From positions 1-33,395 of the IMG/VR virus record IMGVR_UViG_3300009129_000057: a stretch of 33,395 nucleotides of DNA; one strand, given 5' to 3'. Below the pieces are notes generated by a model. It was not told where the DNA came from. It did no database searches and worked only from the letters and a program-made list of their open reading frames with translations. Origin of the DNA: a virus. Every line of letters begins with the position of its first letter. The first letter of the stretch is position 1. Both the position numbers and the translations under genes were made by a program. Positions 12,363-24,467 of this stretch are shown here, piece by piece.

Positions 12363-12668
12363 CTATTTGACCTGATAGATGAAAGAAGGGGTGTCATTTC
12401 TTTTATTTATTTCACTTGTTATGGTTTTAGGGCCGGGCCTCCAGCCATTATTCCACTTTGCCTTATTCGGCGTGGCCCAAATTAGCTCGCAATCTAAACA
12501 ACACTCATTCCTACGGAAAGATAAGACATCATCATGATCTCTCATAAGTTGCTGGCAAACGGGACAGTCTAATGGTACCACATCCGGAAGGTCGGTCGGA
12601 ACTATAATAGAATATTGACTAGTCTTTTTGAGCCTCCTATTATTGGGTAGCTCTTTCCAGTTATCCAC
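12363..12668 (-). CDS. Small zinc-ribbon protein (101 aa)
   Basis: A 101-residue protein with a probable zinc-binding ribbon: CPVC (Cys35, Cys38) and, 17 residues later, CCLDC (Cys56, Cys57, Cys60). A basic region on each side could bind nucleic acid. The start is GTG at 12668, overlapping the end of the SbcCD-like gene by 8 bases, with a strong GGAGG 7 bases upstream lying within that gene. Translational coupling to the recombination gene is likely. The role is unknown; a transcription or recombination accessory factor is possible. No ATG gives a better start. Confidence 0.75.
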   Translation of the reverse strand: MDNWKELPNNRRLKKTSQYSIIVPTDLPDVVPLDCPVCQQLMRDHDDVLSFRRNECCLDCELIWATPNKAKWNNGWRPGPKTITSEINKRNDTPSFIYQVK

Positions 12669-15600
12669 TTAGTGCCTCCGCGCCGGCGCATTGTATCATT
12701 GAATTCTTGCCATGTTGACGAATGTCCAATACAACATCAACGATATCCTTTACACCATCAACATGAGAAATAACCAAAATATTCCTAAACCATCGCTTTA
12801 AAGACTTAAGCAATCTATTACAGGATTCAACATTCATCTCATCCAAAGCGCCGAAGCCCTCATCAATAACTAAGAGATTTGTCTTTGGTAATGAGCTAAT
12901 ATTAATCAATGCTACACGAATCGCAAGAGACGCCATCATCTTCTCCATACCTGAACCACATTCAATAATACGGCGTGAATCTCCATAGTTTATGAAAATA
13001 TCCATTGCATTGCTATTTGACTCAGCCTCAAGCTCCACAGTAAACCCAACAACGTCCTGTAAGATCTTTGATATCTCTTTGTTGATAATCGGGAGCTGGG
13101 ACGTGATAATCTGCAAGGGAATTCCCTTTTTAGAGACTGCATTCATAAACAGCTCATAGATTCTCCATTGAGACATCAAATCCTTGAACTCATCTCTCTC
13201 TTTTTCTAAGCGTCCAATCTCATTGGTAAGTAATCCAATCGACTCAGATATACTCATCCGTCGTGAGTCAAGCTCTGTGATATCAGATGATAATTCATTC
13301 ATCATTTTTTTCATATGACTAATTTCTTCTGCAACCTCGCCATCGCTAACCCTGAGCTTCATATCGTTTAATAGTTTTTCTGCATCGGCAACTATCACAG
13401 TTGTAGTATTAACATCTGTTTCTAATGAATGTAGTTCAACAGCCTTCTCAGAAGCTTCGACCTTTAATCTTGTACCTTGGGTTAAAATAGCATCATATCT
13501 TTCTAATTTGTCTATCAACCCTTCTTTAACCAAGATTTTAAGAGATTTTCTGGCCGCTCGAACACCATCCAGTAATGCCGTGGTTTTATCCTTCTGCTTT
13601 CCTAATAGTTTCTTATTCTTGTGAGCATCCTTGATATATTTGCATGTGGGAAATTGATCACCACATGGAACCTCATCAAGTTTAGCTACGGACTTCTCCT
13701 GAATTTGTAGTAATGTTTTTTCTGTTTTATGACTATGCTCTAAATCTTTAAGGCTAGCCTCTAAATCCAGTTGGGTTGATAATCGTTCTCGGAGCTCGTC
13801 TACAGGAAACTGCTCTTTAACCTGCTCAATTTTTTCAATTTTAAGACCAATATCATGACATTGTTGTTCGGCAACCTCCTGATCAGCTTGAAGCGTTTCC
13901 AATCGCGCATGCGCCTTAGCTAGCTTCGTAGCCTGCATCTCAACATCCTCTGATGTCACCATATCTTTATCTTTATGGGTAGCCAATGATACGGTTAGAT
14001 CTTGAAGCTTATTTCTCTTCTTTGTAAGCTGGTTGTCAATATCATCACGATCAGATGTTTTTCTACCCATAGTCATATTGGCTTGGATAATCATATGATC
14101 CCATTCATGATCTGGGGCATTTTTAATTAGAGCTTTGATATGGGCGGAGTCGTTTGCAGCTGCGGTCAACATTTCTTCAAACATGTTCAAATTTAAGAAA
14201 TTCGTTAATACAGACTTTCTCTGGGTTGCCTTATGTTTGATAAAGTTATTCATTTCACCCTGACTAGCCATGGACGTTAATAAGAAATCATCAGCAGTAC
14301 CAACCAATTTCCGAATAATCTTCTCAGTTTCAGTACGCTGAGCGCCGCTAAGATCCTGTATTACATTCCCATTTTCATCAATCTTGAATAGATTAAGGTG
14401 CGTGACAGCATGAAGCTTTCCAGCCCTTGTTTCATGTTTTGTTGATTGCCTTTCAATTCTATATAATTGTCCGTTAATTGACATATCAACAGAACCCTGG
14501 CAATATCCTTTTCGTGAATTAATAATGTGGAGGTTCTTAATCGACCCCCTATCCGTAGTATTAAATAAGGTATACATCAATGAGCCAGGAATTGATGACT
14601 TTCCAGATCGATTCGGGCCAAAGAGACCGATGATGCCACTAAGGTCATCAAACTTAATATAGTTTCCCTTTCCATATGAAAACGTATTATCAAATCGAAA
14701 ATTCTTTATTGACCATTTAACATTTCTGGCGGAATCACCATTTGAGATCTGGGGAACGTACTTATTTATCAAATCATCTAACAATCCCCATTCATCATCA
14801 TCTAAATCAATCTCAGAATAATACTCTCTCATTAACTTAGAGTGAGTATTTGCTTCCCTTAAATCATCTTTGAATAGCTCGCCGTCACCAAGTTTGATTA
14901 CCGAAGTACTACCTACATCAACATCATTCTTATAAACAATCTCTGTAGCATCCTTAAATTCCTTAAGAGCAGAATGAAGTTGTTTTATCTCATGCTGAGA
15001 AAGTTGTTCATTGGTTCGAACCCTAAAGCGAGACCCGTCAGGATATGCCTCCGCTTCATCCAATGTTGTTTGTACGTCTTCCGTCCAGTCAATCGTTACA
15101 AAGGGTTTTGAGTGGGGCACCTCATAAAATGTCGATCTAAAATTATCACGATCATCGATCTCCCAAAATAAAAACCCCTTGCCGGGATCCTCACCATAGT
15201 TTTGCTGGATTGTCGACCCTGGGTACGCTATACGTTTCTCATGGTCTAAATATTGGACCTTATGAATATCACCCAAGAATGTGAAGTCATAATCTTTAAA
15301 GAATTCAACATTAACCTCACCTTCGACCTTCCAATTAATATCTGTTTGAGAACCCTCTACACCACCATGAAAAGTAGCAATGTTAATCTCTCCAGGGATA
15401 GGCTCAACATCATCCCACGTATCCATATCGAAACATGAAAACACACACCAATTAAATCCCGGTACACCAATTGGATATGTTCCTGATTTCTTATAAAGGA
15501 ATAAGCGTGGATTATTCAGTGCAGAAATAATGGGACTAATAGCATCCTGCCTATCCTTATTCATCATCAAACCATCATGGTTTCCTAGAATAATGTGGGT

Positions 15601-15825
15601 AGGGGCAATTTCTGCTAATCCGGTAAACCACCAATTTAGAATATCAATTAATTCTGGTGAAATGCCCTGGGTCTTTGAGTGAACAATATCACCCCCGACA
15701 AATATCGCATCCGGATTTAAGCTTTTTGCTTTCTCAAAGAATGCTTGAAAAGATTCTCGATATTCATCATGTCTGGTTAAACCCCTAAAGTGAATATCGG
15801 ATATGTGCACGCACTTAAAACTCAT
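12661..15825 (-). CDS. Fused SbcD-SbcC-like recombination nuclease/ATPase (gp47-gp46 fusion)
   Basis: Processes DNA ends for recombination-dependent replication, as the T4 gp46/gp47 (Rad50/Mre11) complex does, but here in one 1054-residue chain. Residues 1-300 are a metallophosphoesterase with SDIHF (D10, H12), GGD46, GNHD (81-84), FHGG (H153), GDIH (185-188) and YPGST (201-205). Residues from about 370 are an SMC-type ATPase with Walker A GPNRSGKSS near 400. A long coiled coil follows, with a turn at PCGDQFPTCKYIK near 720 as the probable zinc hook. The ABC signature ECGSGMEKMMAS lies near 955 and Walker B LLVIDEGFGALDE near 985. The Walker A, signature and nuclease metal ligands all appear intact. 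The gene lies 12 bases after the primase gene. Confidence 0.93.
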   Translation of the reverse strand: MSFKCVHISDIHFRGLTRHDEYRESFQAFFEKAKSLNPDAIFVGGDIVHSKTQGISPELIDILNWWFTGLAEIAPTHIILGNHDGLMMNKDRQDAISPIISALNNPRLFLYKKSGTYPIGVPGFNWCVFSCFDMDTWDDVEPIPGEINIATFHGGVEGSQTDINWKVEGEVNVEFFKDYDFTFLGDIHKVQYLDHEKRIAYPGSTIQQNYGEDPGKGFLFWEIDDRDNFRSTFYEVPHSKPFVTIDWTEDVQTTLDEAEAYPDGSRFRVRTNEQLSQHEIKQLHSALKEFKDATEIVYKNDVDVGSTSVIKLGDGELFKDDLREANTHSKLMREYYSEIDLDDDEWGLLDDLINKYVPQISNGDSARNVKWSIKNFRFDNTFSYGKGNYIKFDDLSGIIGLFGPNRSGKSSIPGSLMYTLFNTTDRGSIKNLHIINSRKGYCQGSVDMSINGQLYRIERQSTKHETRAGKLHAVTHLNLFKIDENGNVIQDLSGAQRTETEKIIRKLVGTADDFLLTSMASQGEMNNFIKHKATQRKSVLTNFLNLNMFEEMLTAAANDSAHIKALIKNAPDHEWDHMIIQANMTMGRKTSDRDDIDNQLTKKRNKLQDLTVSLATHKDKDMVTSEDVEMQATKLAKAHARLETLQADQEVAEQQCHDIGLKIEKIEQVKEQFPVDELRERLSTQLDLEASLKDLEHSHKTEKTLLQIQEKSVAKLDEVPCGDQFPTCKYIKDAHKNKKLLGKQKDKTTALLDGVRAARKSLKILVKEGLIDKLERYDAILTQGTRLKVEASEKAVELHSLETDVNTTTVIVADAEKLLNDMKLRVSDGEVAEEISHMKKMMNELSSDITELDSRRMSISESIGLLTNEIGRLEKERDEFKDLMSQWRIYELFMNAVSKKGIPLQIITSQLPIINKEISKILQDVVGFTVELEAESNSNAMDIFINYGDSRRIIECGSGMEKMMASLAIRVALINISSLPKTNLLVIDEGFGALDEMNVESCNRLLKSLKRWFRNILVISHVDGVKDIVDVVLDIRQHGKNSMIQCAGAEALSG

Positions 15826-16882: not shown

Positions 16883-17446
16883 TCAGGGATTGGTCTGATC
16901 TACTGTTTTCGATCCTGCCTGGGCAATGACATATGCATCAGCTGCATCGAAACAACCGGGCTCCAAAACCTGTTGTCCCTTGCGGGGCCCACTTTTTAGA
17001 ACTTTCTGCGGCCACTCATAAACTACCTGGCCTGATACCCAGTCAAGGACCTGTTCCTTGGTAGGCTTACCGCCTTTTTTCTTTGAAATAATCTTAAGGC
17101 CGACGGATTTTCTAGCAACATTAACATTAATATACAACGGTTCACAAAAAAACTCTTGCTGGGCTAGATATCCCACAATGCCGTTAAATCTTGCTAATGT
17201 TAAAAGAGTTTTTGCAGAAGAAAAACCGGGGCGGAAAGCCTGCAAATTCTCCTCTATAAAAACCCGAGTTATGTCGTATGTAATATGCAACGAGGACAGC
17301 CTCTCTCGCATTATCTGAGCCTTCTGGTAGGACGATAGTTTGTTACTAAGGGGAATATATCCCATATCAACAAAGGACCCTCCTGGACTTACTATGCACC
17401 AGCCTGTACAACTGGTTGAAATGTCTAATCCTATGCTATAACTCAC
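16883..17446 (-). CDS. RuvC-like Holliday junction resolvase
   Basis: Probably cuts branched DNA intermediates before packaging, replacing T4 endonuclease VII (gp49), which is unrelated in fold. The 187-residue RNase H-fold protein shows the RuvC acidic residues: D8 in IGLDIS, E65/E66 in FIEEN, and D167 and D170 in DAADAYVIA. The Lys-rich loop ISKKKGGKPTKEQ (about 120-132) may contact DNA. The start is GTG at 17446, overlapping the TAG stop of the 1772-aa gene by one base (TAGTG), with AAGGT upstream. This ties expression of a DNA enzyme to a structural gene. Confidence 0.88.
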   Translation of the reverse strand: MSYSIGLDISTSCTGWCIVSPGGSFVDMGYIPLSNKLSSYQKAQIMRERLSSLHITYDITRVFIEENLQAFRPGFSSAKTLLTLARFNGIVGYLAQQEFFCEPLYINVNVARKSVGLKIISKKKGGKPTKEQVLDWVSGQVVYEWPQKVLKSGPRKGQQVLEPGCFDAADAYVIAQAGSKTVDQTNP

Positions 17447-20400
17447 TAAAAATCTACCTTAACTCGGAAGGCTAGGTTGTCAGCGTCACGTTTCATAATG
17501 GGCTGGGCCAAACTAGTCCTTGCTACAATATTAAGGTTCTCGTCGTGAAAGTTCAATCCGGTAACATAAACAAATTCTGTATCTTCCTCGCTAGCAAATG
17601 TTGAAGCCTTTAAGTTTTCATAACGAGGATTCGAACTCGAATTAATTTGGCCCTGTTGACAAGGTACCAATATCTCCATAATGTGGATGTTATGATTACC
17701 TTCAAGGTTTACTTCAAACTGCTCTTTACCAAAATATGGGATACAAGGGCTGTGAACTACTGCAACTCCTTCTTCATAAATTATATTACCAACGCTAGAC
17801 CAAAGAGGGTGTTCAGTTTCAGCATCTGCCCGGTATAAAAGACCATGCCCATTATCTCGAAGGGTAATTTTTACCTTCCCGCCTGAACCGGTTACATCAT
17901 GGTCGATTAATTCGAATGTTTTAGGTGTTATCTTTCTACCATAAAACAGATTTGATACGTCAAAAAAGACGATTTCGTTAGAAGAAGTGTCCCTGGTCCG
18001 CTGAAGTATGGCAAGTACAGAACCGGGTGCTACCCCTGGATTTTCCGGGGTGGAACCAGCCACTGCCGCGAAGATTGAATCTTCACTTAAATCATCATTA
18101 CCTTCGGAATCAACAGCAATCAACCCGGGATACATCATCTCTTCCGGTACCATATTTCTCAAAGTAACCAGCCCATAGTCAATTGTACCGTAATCATTTA
18201 CGAACTTAGACGTTTCATGGTCAACTGTGGGTTTGGACTCGTAGCTTCCAGAAGCAAGTATGGTAAAATCAGGGACAAACATGCCGTTATCACAAGGAAG
18301 TATGGTGAGGTTTCTCTTTCTAATCCCAGGATCATCGTTTAAGAATTCATTTGCCTCTTTTTCTTCCTGTGTGGTGGTATCAATTGTTGATCCAGTTAGA
18401 TTCATTAGAAGGGGATACTCACCCTGCACAAATTCTCTGCAGAAATTTTCCAGATTTAGTAAATGACCACCCACACCAAATGACATTGCCACATTAAACG
18501 GATCATCTGTGGTTGAAGTCATTGTCTGGAACGGGGTCAACATTACTTCTCTTTCCCTAGACTCCTTAACAAAGAATGGAGGCAAGAAAAACATCAGATG
18601 TTCTTCAAGTTCCTCGATACCATCCTTCTGTGTTGACCATAGCTGGGGCAGTGTTCTATAATCATTCCAGATTTTTAACTCATGGACCTCTGCATTCAGC
18701 GGATGCCGCAGGTGATAGTCATTTGGCTCAAGTGGATCCGGATCGTCTGCAGTCCAGCCGGACTCAGAGTCAACATCATCTAGCCGGCCCCAGGTAATAC
18801 CATGTTTTGCTGCAGCTTCGTAACTAAAGAAGCCCTGTATGTACTGGGTTTCATCTGAATTTAATGTCAACACTTGATCATAGACATAGTCCTTGCCAAA
18901 ATCTGTCTCTAAGTCGGTTACGGAATCTGCTAAAGTTGACGATAATATGGGTGTATATTTAAGCGTATCCATGGTATAATCAACCATGGCGTTAAAATAA
19001 GTTTCTCTAAGGCTGTAGTCTGTTTCTGCCTCTTCCCCGAGTTCAACTGGAATATCCTGGGCAAATACTTCAATCCCAGAAGAATTAAGCCATCGGCCGA
19101 CTTGAGGATCTCCTGGGAGGCCTTCGGGGTGATCGGCTTTTTCTTGAACATACCATGCATATTCTTCAGCTACATGATCACCTTCTATTGTAGGTAATCC
19201 CTCAGCATCTAAGTAAGATGTGGTCTGACTATAGGATGCCCCATTTTTACCTTCAAAGTAATTTCCTACAAATAATGCAGCAGGATCTGCTTCTATATCA
19301 GTGTCTTCAAAATCAGTAATTAGTGTCCATCCGCCCTCGCCATCCGAGTGCGATAGATCTGCCCATTTTCTTGGTTCTGCGTCTCCAAACTCTTGTGGAA
19401 GACTTAAGTCAGCTACAGAATAAGGATCAATTGGATCAAGAGGCAAATTGAACTCAGTGTCAATTTTGCCATCAATTATAATTTGAGCTTTTGAGTCATC
19501 GATTAAGCTTGTTCCCCAACGTATGGCAATGTGGTGCCAATGATTACGTCTTAAGGAATTATCTGAGGAGAGGTATATCAGGTTCGACCCAGAGATAGCA
19601 TTGGGCCGATCAGCCTCCGGTAATGCTGCGGTAACTTCCCATAGCTCTGTACTGTAGTTGTAATATTGTTCGTTACCGTATACACCATGCTCTAAATAAG
19701 GAACGTGAGACGGTGGGATATCTGCAGACGAACTGAGTTGTAACATAATTCGGAATGTGTCCGGGTGGCCGCCATGGTCGATATGGCTTCCGGTAACCAA
19801 ACTAATGGCGTAACTGGATGACATGTGGAGGACTGTCCCGGCTTGAAAGGCATGAGATTGTTCCCTGTTAACAACAACATGATCTCTACCACCGTCTAAG
19901 TCAAACTCATCTTCAATTGTGGAATATGTTATTGGAGATCCGGCCTCAGACCATGTAAACTCATTGGCATCTGTATCTGCAAAGGCATCTCGAGCATCTT
20001 CATCAACCATCGAGGATGATTCTGTATTTTCAACCCAATCCCATGATGTATCATCACCTGGGATTGTCTGTTCCCATGCATACCAAGTAAATTCTTCCTG
20101 TTGGAGAGTTTCAATTCTAGCAGTACCTATATTTCCATCCCATCCGCAGACTAATGTTTGAATCCAGACTCGCCCATAGACTCGGGTCGGCTCATAGGTC
20201 ATAACAGCTTCGTAACCCTGTCCTTCTGCCCAGGCTATTTGTTCTAAGATTGACGGATCTGCAGGATCACCGTATGTAACCAATAAAGGAAAATAACTTC
20301 GGTCCACATGTACGTACGTCATCCATTCCACTTCATCAGGAAGAGTAGTCGTAGATGGATCGGTTGGATCAACATCTTCATACCCAGCGTCATATTCATT

Positions 20401-22764
20401 ATAGTCAGCCCAAGCTTGCTCAGTCCACTCAGTAGCATTTGTATGACCTGGATAGTGTGATAAATTTGTTGTTTCTGCCGCTAACGCAGCTATAATTTCA
20501 TCATCATCAGCATATCCCCAATATGAGGCAATTCCATAATCAGTTACATCAACTGCTGTGTCATACCAATACTGGTTGCCATTGACGTCGAAAGTGCCGT
20601 CAACATCATCACCTGTCTCTTTATCATAATAACCTGTGTAACCATGATTTGCAGCTGTGTCAAATGAAGCGCCGTCGTCATCGGTCCACCCTACAATTTC
20701 GCCGTAACCAACCGATGCTGCAGTGAATTCAGTACCAAGTGTACCCCACAGAAGTACACCAGCAGAAGTGGCCTGATAGCTGTTTATCGTTGCGGTAGGG
20801 TCATCTGGAAAATCTTTGGCTACTGCATCAAAAACGTTATATTCGGTTAGGCCGTTGTCATCTGTCCATAATAGTTCTTCGGCTTCATTAACTTTTTGCT
20901 GGCCATCTTCATCAACGATCTCCACCTTTTCCGCCCAGCTCTTAAAGTACTCATTGCCATCGATCGTTTTAGCGATGTTTATTGCAGTTGCGTAATTGTC
21001 AAAATCGCCGACCTCATTCTTGCCAACGGTCCAGTCAGTAGCATTCTGAATATTCCCCGGGGCGGCAAATTCGAACGTTTGAACGCCATTATACCCATCG
21101 TCACAAATAATACTGCAGTTTTTGATAATCGGGTCGCCAGACTGGAAATCATAATCTGGGGACTCATCGCCCTTATCTGTTATTAGGTTTTCATGACGAG
21201 GATATCCTCTCTCTGCCCACCATTCTTCTTCTGTCCATTCACCGTATAAAACATCTTCGGGTGGATCTACGACACCATCGCCATTAGGATCAGCAATAAT
21301 AGCATCGATATCAGAATTATCTGTCAATAAGTAAAATCCGGTATACCCAGCCTCTTCAGCGGTTGCCCATTCTGGATCTCCATCAGGAGGTGAGTCTAAA
21401 TCAACCTCATAAAACCAATCGACCCACCAACTACTATCATGTGCAGCCCGGCCCCCTCCATGGAAGTCAATAAACAGTTGTTCCCAATCCTTAACCACAA
21501 ATGACCCAGAGGCACACGAATCAACCTCATCAATAGTATACCGGGGGTTAATATAGAACTCAAACGTAAAGGAACCAGAGGGGCTATAAGGGATTATGCT
21601 AGGATCGACTGTTTCATCTGTAATCGACGGGTAAATAAGCGCTGAATCTGGTGGTACTAATGACGACGTGAAGAAATTAATGGCGTTATAATTGCTAAAT
21701 GCCCAATGTAAGCTAGGGTGCTTTGTCCTATAGTGAGGAAATAAAACATCCTTAACAACATTCTTTCGTAAAGAGTCGCTTGTCAGCTTAAATGATGGCT
21801 CAAACCTAGTTACTGAAACTGCGGTATGCTTTCTAGATGAAACTTCAGAATCATTAACCATTCCCAGATAACGATCTAGCATTACGTTAATCGACGTTGC
21901 CGATCCGGATGTCGCAACTTCCACGTTAAAGACATTATAGGGAAATGTTGGAAGATCTTGATCTCCTACCCCGTCAGCATCCAGGTCTAAATCTAGTATA
22001 GGAGTGCCTGTTATTGGGTTGGTAATTACCCCAGTCACCGGAGGGTCGCATGTGCCATATTGCACATTAGTTATTGTAACCGTTGAGTAATTATAGTCAG
22101 ATATGTATGTCGTATCAAAGGATGCCACAGAGTCGACTGCTGCAGACGTGGCACTAGCCACTAATTCCAAAGCCTGTTCTACATCATATACATCAGGGGA
22201 GAGTGAAGGATCACCCACACCAGGTAAGTCCTTAAGATCAACCATGTGGAGTGAACCATTTTCAGGTATGTCCGGCTTTTGCTTTGAGTTTCCCCAGTCA
22301 CTATTATAAAAATAGAATCTACGTACGGTGCCATATGCTTCAGTTAAGTCAAAGTAAGCATTTTCGATATACTTGTGTGAAGAATGGCCGAGGAGATCGC
22401 GATAATCAAACGATCCTTCCGTCCCATAGCCACCAGCTAGGGTTGAGTCTGTGTCTTCGGTTCTAAACGTTAATTCGGTAACCTGTTGTATTTGAACTGG
22501 ATCATTAAGTGAGGCGGATGCAATCATCGCATGCCGATATGCCTCTACGGTATCATCCCCGAAGGAGTCCGGACCAGAATCATTGAATGCTTGGAGGGGC
22601 TGGGCTTCTTTTTCGAATTTAGAGCGTTCAGCAAAAACATAAACAGAGCCGGTTACTCCGGTCTCTAATATACTTCCAGCTGAAGCTGACGAATAATGGC
22701 GTTTAGGACGGGTCTCTAATGTTAAGTTCTCGAACCATTGACTATCTAAACCGAATATCGCCAT
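17446..22764 (-). CDS. Giant virion structural protein with a split LamG-like domain (1772 aa)
   Basis: Probably a tail or adsorption component. The C-terminal half carries a LamG/concanavalin A-like beta-sandwich. Its strands are visible as SGSFTFEFYINPRY (near 400), FQAGTVLHMSSSYAISLVTG (about 973-992), NHWHHIAIRWGTS (near 1075), AQIIIDGKID, ALFVGNYFEG (near 1165) and AEVHELKIWNDYR (near 1360). Two insertions appear to separate these strands, about 410-970 and 1172-1352. They are rich in Asp, Glu, Trp and Tyr. A DPNGDGVVD calcium-type loop lies in the first insertion and DLDADGVGD lies N-terminal to the domain. After the fold comes a structural region (about 1375-1680) and a C-terminal domain ending RVKVDF that is shared with the 529-aa protein. 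No signal peptide or membrane helix is seen. LamG domains often bind carbohydrates, so receptor contact is possible. Confidence 0.85.
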   Translation of the reverse strand: MAIFGLDSQWFENLTLETRPKRHYSSASAGSILETGVTGSVYVFAERSKFEKEAQPLQAFNDSGPDSFGDDTVEAYRHAMIASASLNDPVQIQQVTELTFRTEDTDSTLAGGYGTEGSFDYRDLLGHSSHKYIENAYFDLTEAYGTVRRFYFYNSDWGNSKQKPDIPENGSLHMVDLKDLPGVGDPSLSPDVYDVEQALELVASATSAAVDSVASFDTTYISDYNYSTVTITNVQYGTCDPPVTGVITNPITGTPILDLDLDADGVGDQDLPTFPYNVFNVEVATSGSATSINVMLDRYLGMVNDSEVSSRKHTAVSVTRFEPSFKLTSDSLRKNVVKDVLFPHYRTKHPSLHWAFSNYNAINFFTSSLVPPDSALIYPSITDETVDPSIIPYSPSGSFTFEFYINPRYTIDEVDSCASGSFVVKDWEQLFIDFHGGGRAAHDSSWWVDWFYEVDLDSPPDGDPEWATAEEAGYTGFYLLTDNSDIDAIIADPNGDGVVDPPEDVLYGEWTEEEWWAERGYPRHENLITDKGDESPDYDFQSGDPIIKNCSIICDDGYNGVQTFEFAAPGNIQNATDWTVGKNEVGDFDNYATAINIAKTIDGNEYFKSWAEKVEIVDEDGQQKVNEAEELLWTDDNGLTEYNVFDAVAKDFPDDPTATINSYQATSAGVLLWGTLGTEFTAASVGYGEIVGWTDDDGASFDTAANHGYTGYYDKETGDDVDGTFDVNGNQYWYDTAVDVTDYGIASYWGYADDDEIIAALAAETTNLSHYPGHTNATEWTEQAWADYNEYDAGYEDVDPTDPSTTTLPDEVEWMTYVHVDRSYFPLLVTYGDPADPSILEQIAWAEGQGYEAVMTYEPTRVYGRVWIQTLVCGWDGNIGTARIETLQQEEFTWYAWEQTIPGDDTSWDWVENTESSSMVDEDARDAFADTDANEFTWSEAGSPITYSTIEDEFDLDGGRDHVVVNREQSHAFQAGTVLHMSSSYAISLVTGSHIDHGGHPDTFRIMLQLSSSADIPPSHVPYLEHGVYGNEQYYNYSTELWEVTAALPEADRPNAISGSNLIYLSSDNSLRRNHWHHIAIRWGTSLIDDSKAQIIIDGKIDTEFNLPLDPIDPYSVADLSLPQEFGDAEPRKWADLSHSDGEGGWTLITDFEDTDIEADPAALFVGNYFEGKNGASYSQTTSYLDAEGLPTIEGDHVAEEYAWYVQEKADHPEGLPGDPQVGRWLNSSGIEVFAQDIPVELGEEAETDYSLRETYFNAMVDYTMDTLKYTPILSSTLADSVTDLETDFGKDYVYDQVLTLNSDETQYIQGFFSYEAAAKHGITWGRLDDVDSESGWTADDPDPLEPNDYHLRHPLNAEVHELKIWNDYRTLPQLWSTQKDGIEELEEHLMFFLPPFFVKESREREVMLTPFQTMTSTTDDPFNVAMSFGVGGHLLNLENFCREFVQGEYPLLMNLTGSTIDTTTQEEKEANEFLNDDPGIRKRNLTILPCDNGMFVPDFTILASGSYESKPTVDHETSKFVNDYGTIDYGLVTLRNMVPEEMMYPGLIAVDSEGNDDLSEDSIFAAVAGSTPENPGVAPGSVLAILQRTRDTSSNEIVFFDVSNLFYGRKITPKTFELIDHDVTGSGGKVKITLRDNGHGLLYRADAETEHPLWSSVGNIIYEEGVAVVHSPCIPYFGKEQFEVNLEGNHNIHIMEILVPCQQGQINSSSNPRYENLKASTFASEEDTEFVYVTGLNFHDENLNIVARTSLAQPIMKRDADNLAFRVKVDF

Positions 22765-22877: not shown

Positions 22878-24467
22878 CTAGAAGTCTAATCTAACACGAA
22901 TCGTAATATCCTTCTCATCATTCTTTTCGATTGGTCTAGACAATTTAGCGACTGCTAATAGATTATCATTGGCATCATACATCCCCACGGTAGTTGGGAA
23001 CGTAAATGATCTTTGAGTATCTTCCTGGCCTTCGTCAATTACTACAACCCTATTTTCTTCATCAACATATGTCGGGTTGGCAGAATAATTAAATTCATCA
23101 GCCGTAGCCCTGCAGAATATTAGGGTGGAATTAATTGTAGTTACATTTTGGAACGTTATCGCAGTTAATGAACCGGATTGGAATCTACATGTTGCAAAGT
23201 GATCAACAATATTATCAATCGACCCCGAAACTAAGAAATCTGGTACGAATCGTGCATAAGGATTTCCGGATCCGTAATCATCACCGGTACCATCCATATA
23301 TCCTGGATTGACGTCATCGTCATCATTCGAGTCAAGAGCAGCATTCGAGTACTCTGAAAGTGTGCCGGTAACTGGGTGGCCCAGCCACCCATACCCGATA
23401 CCGACCTGGCCGTTGGACACAGATACCTGATATTCGGAAGCCGTATCGCCTTCCGGCGCTGCTGTTAGTGTCTCAACGATATCAGACGAATCTATGGCGT
23501 TTCCATCAGGTTCATCGCTACCACCATGACTAATCCATGCGCTACTACACTTAATGGAAGTAACTGACTCTGCACTCATACCATCAATAATACCCATGAC
23601 AGCCTGGTCCGGATCAATTGCACGGTTAACGTTAAATACCGCAACGCCGGCATCATAAAACAAGAGGCCGACTTTTCTGGATGTATCAGCGGAGTCAACA
23701 ATATCTGCAACTTCACCACCGAAAGTAGTCCGCTTACTAGTAGCAGCGCCAATATCAGTAAAAATTGCCACCGAACCAGTAGAGGTAGTATTTAAGTTGG
23801 GTGTGATGCCATCAGCCCAATATGGAGGTGGATCAATAATGTGATCACCATCCGCATCAAGCTCTAGCTCTGGATTTCCAATTGGGATTAGGTCTCTATC
23901 AACCAAATCTTGCTCACGCCAACAGCGGTAAGAGTTGCCGGCCAAAGAAGCAGATTGATAAAACCTCATGGCAAAGGTTTCTCTCTTAATCTTATCCCTG
24001 GCAAATAGTCTCTTAAAGCAAACAAAGAATGCATTATCTATGCGGTCGTCCTCTTCGTCCGATCCAAAGGGGGTTGAAAAATAGGCATCTGAGTCACCCA
24101 TAAGGGTGGCTGCAAACTGCTTATATATGTCAACCTTCTCCCTCATCATCATTGATTCGGAGGGAAATAATAACTTACCAGAAGCATCTTCGGAGATTAA
24201 AGTGTCTTGAACTGTCGAACCACTAAAATATAGCCCAACTGTCATATCCATAACAGCATTTGCACTTTGCAATGTATGATCTTGATCGTACACCGTCTGA
24301 AATAGCGATGATGTAACACCTTGTCCTATTCCTCCGGTGACAAATACCTGAAATTCTCTTCTGGTATCTGACCCGGATATATCCTCCTGGATAATATCAA
24401 CTAATTGATTTAACGCCGAGCGGCTTGTCTTAATATCTGCCGCTGAAATTTCTTTAAATGTTGCCAT
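22878..24467 (-). CDS. Virion structural protein sharing the C-terminal domain of the 1772-aa protein (529 aa)
   Basis: No exact role is known. It is beta-rich and soluble. Distinct segments are an N-terminal helix (KTSRSALNQLVDIIQEDISG), QVFVTGGIGQGVTSSLFQTV (about 41-60), FVCFKRLFARDKIKRETFAM (about 148-167), VGLLFYDAGVAVFN, and the C-terminal domain from FLVSGSIDNIVDHF to the end. The last 90 residues match the 1772-aa protein's end, including SANPTY, DANDNLLAVAKLSRPI and RVRLDF. A calcium-type loop DADGDHIID lies near 205. Shared terminal domains suggest both attach to the same virion structure, likely the tail tip, baseplate or fibres. GAGG lies 14 bases before the ATG, which is rather far. 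Confidence 0.82.
   Translation of the reverse strand: MATFKEISAADIKTSRSALNQLVDIIQEDISGSDTRREFQVFVTGGIGQGVTSSLFQTVYDQDHTLQSANAVMDMTVGLYFSGSTVQDTLISEDASGKLLFPSESMMMREKVDIYKQFAATLMGDSDAYFSTPFGSDEEDDRIDNAFFVCFKRLFARDKIKRETFAMRFYQSASLAGNSYRCWREQDLVDRDLIPIGNPELELDADGDHIIDPPPYWADGITPNLNTTSTGSVAIFTDIGAATSKRTTFGGEVADIVDSADTSRKVGLLFYDAGVAVFNVNRAIDPDQAVMGIIDGMSAESVTSIKCSSAWISHGGSDEPDGNAIDSSDIVETLTAAPEGDTASEYQVSVSNGQVGIGYGWLGHPVTGTLSEYSNAALDSNDDDDVNPGYMDGTGDDYGSGNPYARFVPDFLVSGSIDNIVDHFATCRFQSGSLTAITFQNVTTINSTLIFCRATADEFNYSANPTYVDEENRVVVIDEGQEDTQRSFTFPTTVGMYDANDNLLAVAKLSRPIEKNDEKDITIRVRLDF

Follow-up and report, generated by a model that had tools for sequence, protein, structure and literature searches.

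A clade-restricted acidic insertion in a predicted laminin-G-like sandwich of a virion-type protein from an uncultivated Far-T4-type phage

Introduction

Far-T4 phages are common in aquatic samples, and almost no members of this group are in culture. Ig-like domains are known as mobile surface domains of phages and occur in tail, sheath, and fibre proteins that are otherwise unrelated. In PMC7198788, the Rhodothermus phage RM378 is given as the sole isolate of the Far-T4 group.

Here, we present the analysis of a window of 33,395 nt, i.e. the whole stretch of the IMG/VR virus record IMGVR_UViG_3300009129_000057 that was studied (33.4 kb). Its genes include those for a T4-type terminase, portal, head protease, and major head protein. 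Among named phages, the nearest relatives are RM378, Microcystis phage Mel-JY01, and Flavobacterium phage immuto; all three are only distantly related and were reached via the C-terminal module of the gene adjoining the one described here. The window represents an uncultivated Far-T4-type (RM378-like) phage. The analysis centres on a 1772-aa protein, referred to as W, whereas its homologues from IMG/VR carry L-numbers.

Results

The protein family and its gene neighbourhood

The following genes and modules are concerned:

17446..22764, minus strand: ORF of 1772 aa, encoding a laminin-G (LamG)-containing virion-type protein (proposed tail- or baseplate-attached adhesin) of a 63-member family with conserved synteny
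17446..17718, minus strand: C-terminal module of about 90 aa (FVYVTGLNFHDENLNIVARTSLAQPI...RVKVDF), also found in the upstream paralogue at 22878-23150
22878..24467, minus strand: upstream paralogue of the LamG protein, 529 aa, enlarged in the same clade as W

The LamG gene is located within a syntenic block common to its relatives, and the neighbours in this block resemble genes of RM378, Mel-JY01, and immuto. The C-terminal module recurs in the upstream gene as well as in several proteins of these three phages and is possibly a common attachment module. Direct searches with W in Pfam, PHROG, and NCBIfam, tblastn of the whole protein against GenBank phages, and a PDB sequence search all gave no match. 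Elsewhere in the window, a single 1054-aa protein (12661-15825) combines a metallophosphoesterase with an SbcC-like ATPase (gp47 and gp46 functions) in one chain; Mel-JY01 has a protein that matches it over nearly its whole length.

A profile of the C-terminal 384 residues of W detected 80 loci in IMG/VR, which together with loci found earlier provided a family alignment of 63 distinct proteins of at least 750 aa. The typical member has a length of 770-860 aa and the common core comprises 785 columns. Compared with this core, W contains six insertions (residues 87-284, 417-970, 1026-1056, 1112-1120, 1128-1155, and 1178-1306), three of them large (87-284, 417-970, and 1178-1306):

21913..22506, minus strand: N-terminal insertion, residues 87-284, 198 aa, missing from most homologues
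21517..21639, minus strand: N-terminal portion of the LamG sandwich, residues 376-416, with strand FTFEFYINP, aligned in homologues (model pLDDT 86-90 on the strand)
19855..21516, minus strand: the insert under study, residues 417-970, about 554-555 aa, shorter than 10 aa in 54 of 63 homologues
18580..19854, minus strand: remaining LamG sandwich, residues 971-1395, with further insertions
19597..19689, minus strand: short insertion within a LamG loop, residues 1026-1056, where L001 reads DLDSDGDVDEDD
19300..19383, minus strand: small insertion, residues 1128-1155; site of a domain X (see below) in L030
18847..19233, minus strand: third large insertion, residues 1178-1306, 129 aa, clade-specific

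At the 87-284 site, L023 (5913-9137) carries a different insertion of 235 aa (residues ~80-320) without recognisable domain X.

One predicted sandwich on both sides of the insert

The Pfam model Laminin_G_3 (PF13385) matches 46 of 59 scanned members at E<=0.01, and among those scanned whole its curated cut-off of 27.6 bits is passed by L018 (32.0), L030 (32.8), and L036 (28.3). Unmodified W gives no match to Laminin_G_3, and with its insertions closed up it reaches 22.2 bits (E 1.6e-4), which is below the cut-off. Residues 330-1395 were modelled with AlphaFold2 on the basis of 59 sequences; the pLDDT is 83-92 for the LamG strands, mostly 40-75 for the insert, and 60.7 as the mean of the whole model. 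By VIA-align, this model matches the laminin-G domain of PAPP-A (Z 16.9, 183 residues, rmsd 3.2, model positions 31-1066) and pentraxins (Z near 16); Foldseek alone detected no PDB match for the LamG model below E 0.05. As the 183 aligned residues span model positions 31-1066, both flanks of the insert are predicted to form one laminin-G/concanavalin-like beta sandwich.

A preliminary description of this DNA, made from the sequence alone, had proposed a LamG-like fold split by an insertion at 19850-21535. These bounds agree with ours within 20 nt, and the proposal is borne out both by the predicted closure of the fold around the insert and by the absence of the region from most homologues.

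Extent, distribution, and composition of the insert

The insert lies between strands two and three of the laminin-G/pentraxin-like sandwich, which it splits directly after strand FTFEFYINP; the corresponding insert-free site in L018 reads FTFEFYVNPRYTSDQRDGHFKAGTIFHMSSS (core columns). The length of this loop among the 63 homologues falls into three classes: 519-627 residues in six proteins (W 555, L001 627, L006 621, L002 604, L016 531, L005 519), 153-256 in three (L085 256, L084 255, L019 153), and fewer than 10 in the remaining 54, so the region is not an integral domain of the family. In a tree calculated from 774 core columns, the six long forms constitute one clade with a support of 1.0, whose sister group consists of L018, L020, and L019. 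The insert is rich in acidic residues (D+E 22% versus 15.6% in the rest of the protein) and in tryptophan (4.6% versus 1.2%), and poor in basic residues (K+R 3.6% versus 6.2%). It matches no model in Pfam, PHROG, or NCBIfam, a profile scan of viral contigs and all fetched ORFs revealed no homologue outside the six related contigs, and neither DNA repeats nor base composition were found to mark it. The insert is real and specific to this lineage, in which it elaborates a known fold at a loop prone to insertions.

The upstream paralogue has a length of about 524-533 aa in the insert clade versus about 400-453 aa in most aligned relatives (517 aa in L035), and its enlargement in the same clade fits a joint elaboration of one surface. 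It also contains clade-specific acidic insertions (NPELELDADGDHIIDPPPYW; GHPVTGTLSEYSNAALDSNDDDDVNPGYMDGTGDDYG) that are missing from the shorter relatives.

Internal organisation of the insert

The following segments can be distinguished within the insert, together with a related motif in the N-terminal insertion:

21184..21372, minus strand: cassette A, residues 465-527, EWATAEEAGYTGFYLL...ADPNGDGVVDPP...WTEEEWWAERGY; the homologous cassette B is missing in W
21256..21291, minus strand: DPNGDGVVDPPE, EF-hand/dockerin-type calcium-loop-like motif in cassette A, residues 492-503
20899..21189, minus strand: first half of the scaffold, residues 526-622, strand-strand-helix-strand (model E219-226, E232-239, H260-272, E278-288), dN 0.09-0.12
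20206..20838, minus strand: fast W/Y-rich stretch, residues 643-853, with the units GYTGYY, WTEQAWADYNEY, and WAEGQGYEA, dN 0.25-0.37
20065..20205, minus strand: second half of the scaffold, residues 854-900, VYGRVWIQTLVCGWDGNIGTARIET, from alignment and model
21952..21987, minus strand: DLDADGVGDQDL, calcium-loop-like motif, residues 260-271, in the N-terminal insertion 87-284

Degenerate repeats of a small unit with the pattern W-x-x-A-x-x-x-GY had been suggested earlier. In this exact form the pattern occurs only once in the insert of W (P 0.016), but its part A-x-x-x-GY is found five times versus 0.23 expected (0 of 2000 shuffles, about 20-fold enriched) and never elsewhere in the protein; all six inserts are enriched to a similar degree. 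The repeat is better written as [W/T/S]-A-x-x-x-G-Y, often following W-[TSD]-E-x-x. Furthermore, W[TSDP][ED]..W (P 0.0015) and GYTG[FYWR] (0.003 expected) each occur twice in the insert of W. Self-alignment of whole inserts gave a mixed picture, with a clear signal in L001 (0 of 100 shuffles as good), a weak one in W (2 of 100), and chance level in L002 (13 of 100). No tandem repeat was detected at the DNA level, so the repeats of the insert are degenerate.

A larger unit also recurs, an acidic cassette of about 60 aa with the consensus W-x-T-A-x-x-x-GYTGFYLLADN...DPNGDGVVDDP...WTEEAWAxxxGY. It is located at residues 465-527 in W (A) and at a later position (B) in L001 and L002, and both copies are present in L006. 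Cassettes moving between sites in different phages were considered as an explanation, and this idea is weakened by L006; a duplication after which one copy was lost or replaced is the simpler account. The pattern DxDxDGxxD occurs twice in W (DPNGDGVVD and DLDADGVGD) versus 0.04 expected by shuffling. All six clade proteins contain one to three such loops within insertions, and the other 57 contain none. By their sequence, these loops are putative calcium-binding sites.

The insert does not evolve uniformly. Its slow scaffold (residues about 525-642) shows a dN of 0.09-0.12 among W, L001, and L002 and retains 80-84% identity, though synonymous changes are mostly saturated. The W/Y-rich parts reach a dN of 0.25-0.9 in the same proteins, versus 0.04-0.09 in the adjoining core (285-416, 970-1025) and the C-terminal core. 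Gapped residues number 19-74 per segment between W and L001 or L002, and 19-44 in the stretch 643-853 among the three. Rapid evolution, as presumed from the sequence at the outset, thus holds for the W/Y-rich parts, which change several-fold faster than the core and with many gaps. It may reflect relaxed constraint. Where measurable, dN/dS is 0.09-0.5, which indicates purifying selection. A reverse transcriptase of a diversity-generating element was not found in six related contigs, which are partial.

A self-nesting domain in relatives of W

In L019, L084, and L085, which belong to two lineages, the loop that holds the insert in W is occupied by a different and readily recognised domain of about 120 aa, here termed domain X, of the type ATFTFSDKPNEGSTITLVDSDGTSVTFEIDNENNG...GTAADLVAKINAQS.LDIVATNP..G.VVLTQGT.GTAGNTTIT.N..HW....VNVPSAFTGG. 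Within the LamG family it also occurs at the site of W residues 87-284 (L027, L030), at that of residues 1128-1155 (L030), and near residue 1549 (L084, L085). Scans with single copies detected it in further phage proteins, among them the tail sheath proteins L126, L129, and L130 and the tail fibre protein L100. The sheath protein L126 is encoded on the same contig as the domain-X-bearing LamG protein L084.

Domain X nests in itself, such that the first ~40 positions of one copy are followed by a full copy and then by positions ~43-121. Two-level nests are present in L084, L085, L096, L097, L099, L108-L110, L114, and L118, and in L112 one copy is interrupted after its fourth strand. Three levels are seen in L128 (2374-6399, residues 135-502). 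No model in Pfam, PHROG, or NCBIfam describes domain X, tblastn against GenBank phages gave no match, and a copy had no relative in 84,980 bacterial and archaeal genomes. Literature searches revealed no earlier account of W or of domain X. The structural model of domain X (pLDDT 80.6) shows modest similarity to inserted domains of tail sheath proteins (8kee, Z 9.2; 8foy, 8.8; 9khy, 8.6) and to domains D2/D3 of FliD (Z about 8), and it also resembles predicted phage proteins annotated as baseplate J-like, major tail, or tail sheath.

Discussion

Origin of the insert

Two readings of the origin of the insert deserve the most weight. According to one, an independent domain unrelated to domain X was gained once in the clade, and the use of the same loop by both would simply reflect that few loops tolerate insertions. 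This reading comes close to being probable: in the viral contigs and ORFs scanned, homologues of the insert are confined to the six related contigs, database models do not match it, and the sequence comparisons with domain X failed. The similar predicted order of strands and helices in the insert and in domain X and the repeated use of the same loops by domain X speak against it. Alternatively, the insert may descend from a domain X that moved into this loop, was later interrupted and expanded by insertions nested within it, and no longer shows its origin in its sequence. This is possible and somewhat less probable than the first reading. In its favour, L019, L084, and L085 carry domain X in the same loop, and L030/L027 carry it at two further insertion sites of W; domain X nests in itself, and the copy of L112 is broken at the very point proposed for the insert of W. 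In addition, the scaffold order of strand-strand-helix-strand, W/Y-rich stretch, and strand-strand with a GN turn is that of the domain X model (beta-beta-beta-alpha-beta-beta-beta), but these elements are of low confidence and interrupted in the model of 330-1395. A profile match of the insert to domain X was not found: single hhalign comparisons yielded E 0.05-0.8, hmmsearch domain scores were below 0, and gap-tolerant alignments were equalled by 19 of 200 shuffles (insert) and 13 of 200 (residues 87-284), that of the insert also differing from the predicted one. In a wider form, exposed loops of the LamG family would be landing sites for a self-inserting mobile virion domain, of which the insert of W would be an old, nested, and diverged product; we put this forward only tentatively.

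It is unlikely that the insert is a largely disordered acidic linker under little constraint and with no specific binding function. The insert is acidic, of low pLDDT over long stretches, and subject to large changes in length, but it is rich in Trp and Tyr and under purifying selection, and its scaffold is conserved among W, L001, and L002 despite saturated synonymous sites. As a large in-frame insertion within a conserved protein, it could also be absent from the mature product, i.e. represent an intein, an intron, or an assembly error. This is highly improbable, as the insert is in frame in several separately assembled contigs and has its own conserved scaffold, and neither a conserved Cys/Ser start with a His-Asn end in its alignment nor a Pfam splicing or homing domain was found.

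Proposed function and significance

We consider it probable that W is a Far-T4-type virion protein whose LamG loop carries a clade-gained, outward-facing insert for host contact or tail protection. In this reading, the protein has a family core of ~785 residues, with a laminin-G/pentraxin-like sandwich and the C-terminal module common to the neighbouring protein. One clade has gained a domain of 520-630 residues in the loop between sandwich strands 2 and 3, consisting of a conserved scaffold that carries quickly changing acidic, Trp/Tyr-rich units with calcium-loop-like motifs. Such units presumably originate from duplications, and close relatives differ in those that have been lost or replaced. 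The loop is insertion-prone, with a mobile beta/alpha domain at this place in other branches, and gives the impression of a site where new surface modules can dock. Most likely, the LamG fold would present the insert outward, where it may contact host surface glycans or protect the tail.

The gene position and the C-terminal module, which is common to the upstream gene and to proteins of RM378, Mel-JY01, and immuto, suggest a location on the tail or baseplate. GenBank phage records gave no match to the LamG part, so no annotated relative supports this location. Contact with a glycan or receptor is suggested by the LamG fold together with the acidic, aromatic-rich, and fast-evolving insert. A clade-restricted insertion in a conserved lectin-like fold is a concrete candidate region for host contact in Far-T4 phages. 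Of broader interest is the self-nesting mobile domain in relatives of W, whose occurrence in LamG, sheath, and fibre proteins suggests a way to enlarge virion proteins without breaking them.

Comparison with known systems

W shares with Laminin_G_3 and the pentraxin/laminin-G sandwiches of PAPP-A, PTX3, and CRP the strands FTFEFYINP, GTxxHMSSS, WHHIAIRW, and xxIIIDG, with a predicted fold likeness of Z 15-17. It differs from them in the ~555-residue insert between strands 2 and 3 and in its smaller insertions, and it stays below the Pfam cut-off even after closing these up. Like the targets of diversity-generating retroelements, the insert is a fast-changing region of a phage protein with a proposed surface location, but here indels and substitutions occur throughout, and six related, partial contigs revealed no reverse transcriptase.

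The model of domain X is similar to the domain found inserted in contractile tail sheath proteins (cyanophage A-1(L), 8kee; Milano, 8foy; Mu, 9khy) and to D2/D3 of the flagellar cap protein FliD; for the insert of W itself, the predicted likeness to these domains is topological only. As sheath inserted domains do, domain X occurs in tail sheath proteins (L126, L129, L130), but unlike the sheath and FliD domains it is found in several kinds of virion protein and nested in itself. Domain X thereby resembles the Ig-like domains of phage virion proteins in being mobile, while having a different fold.
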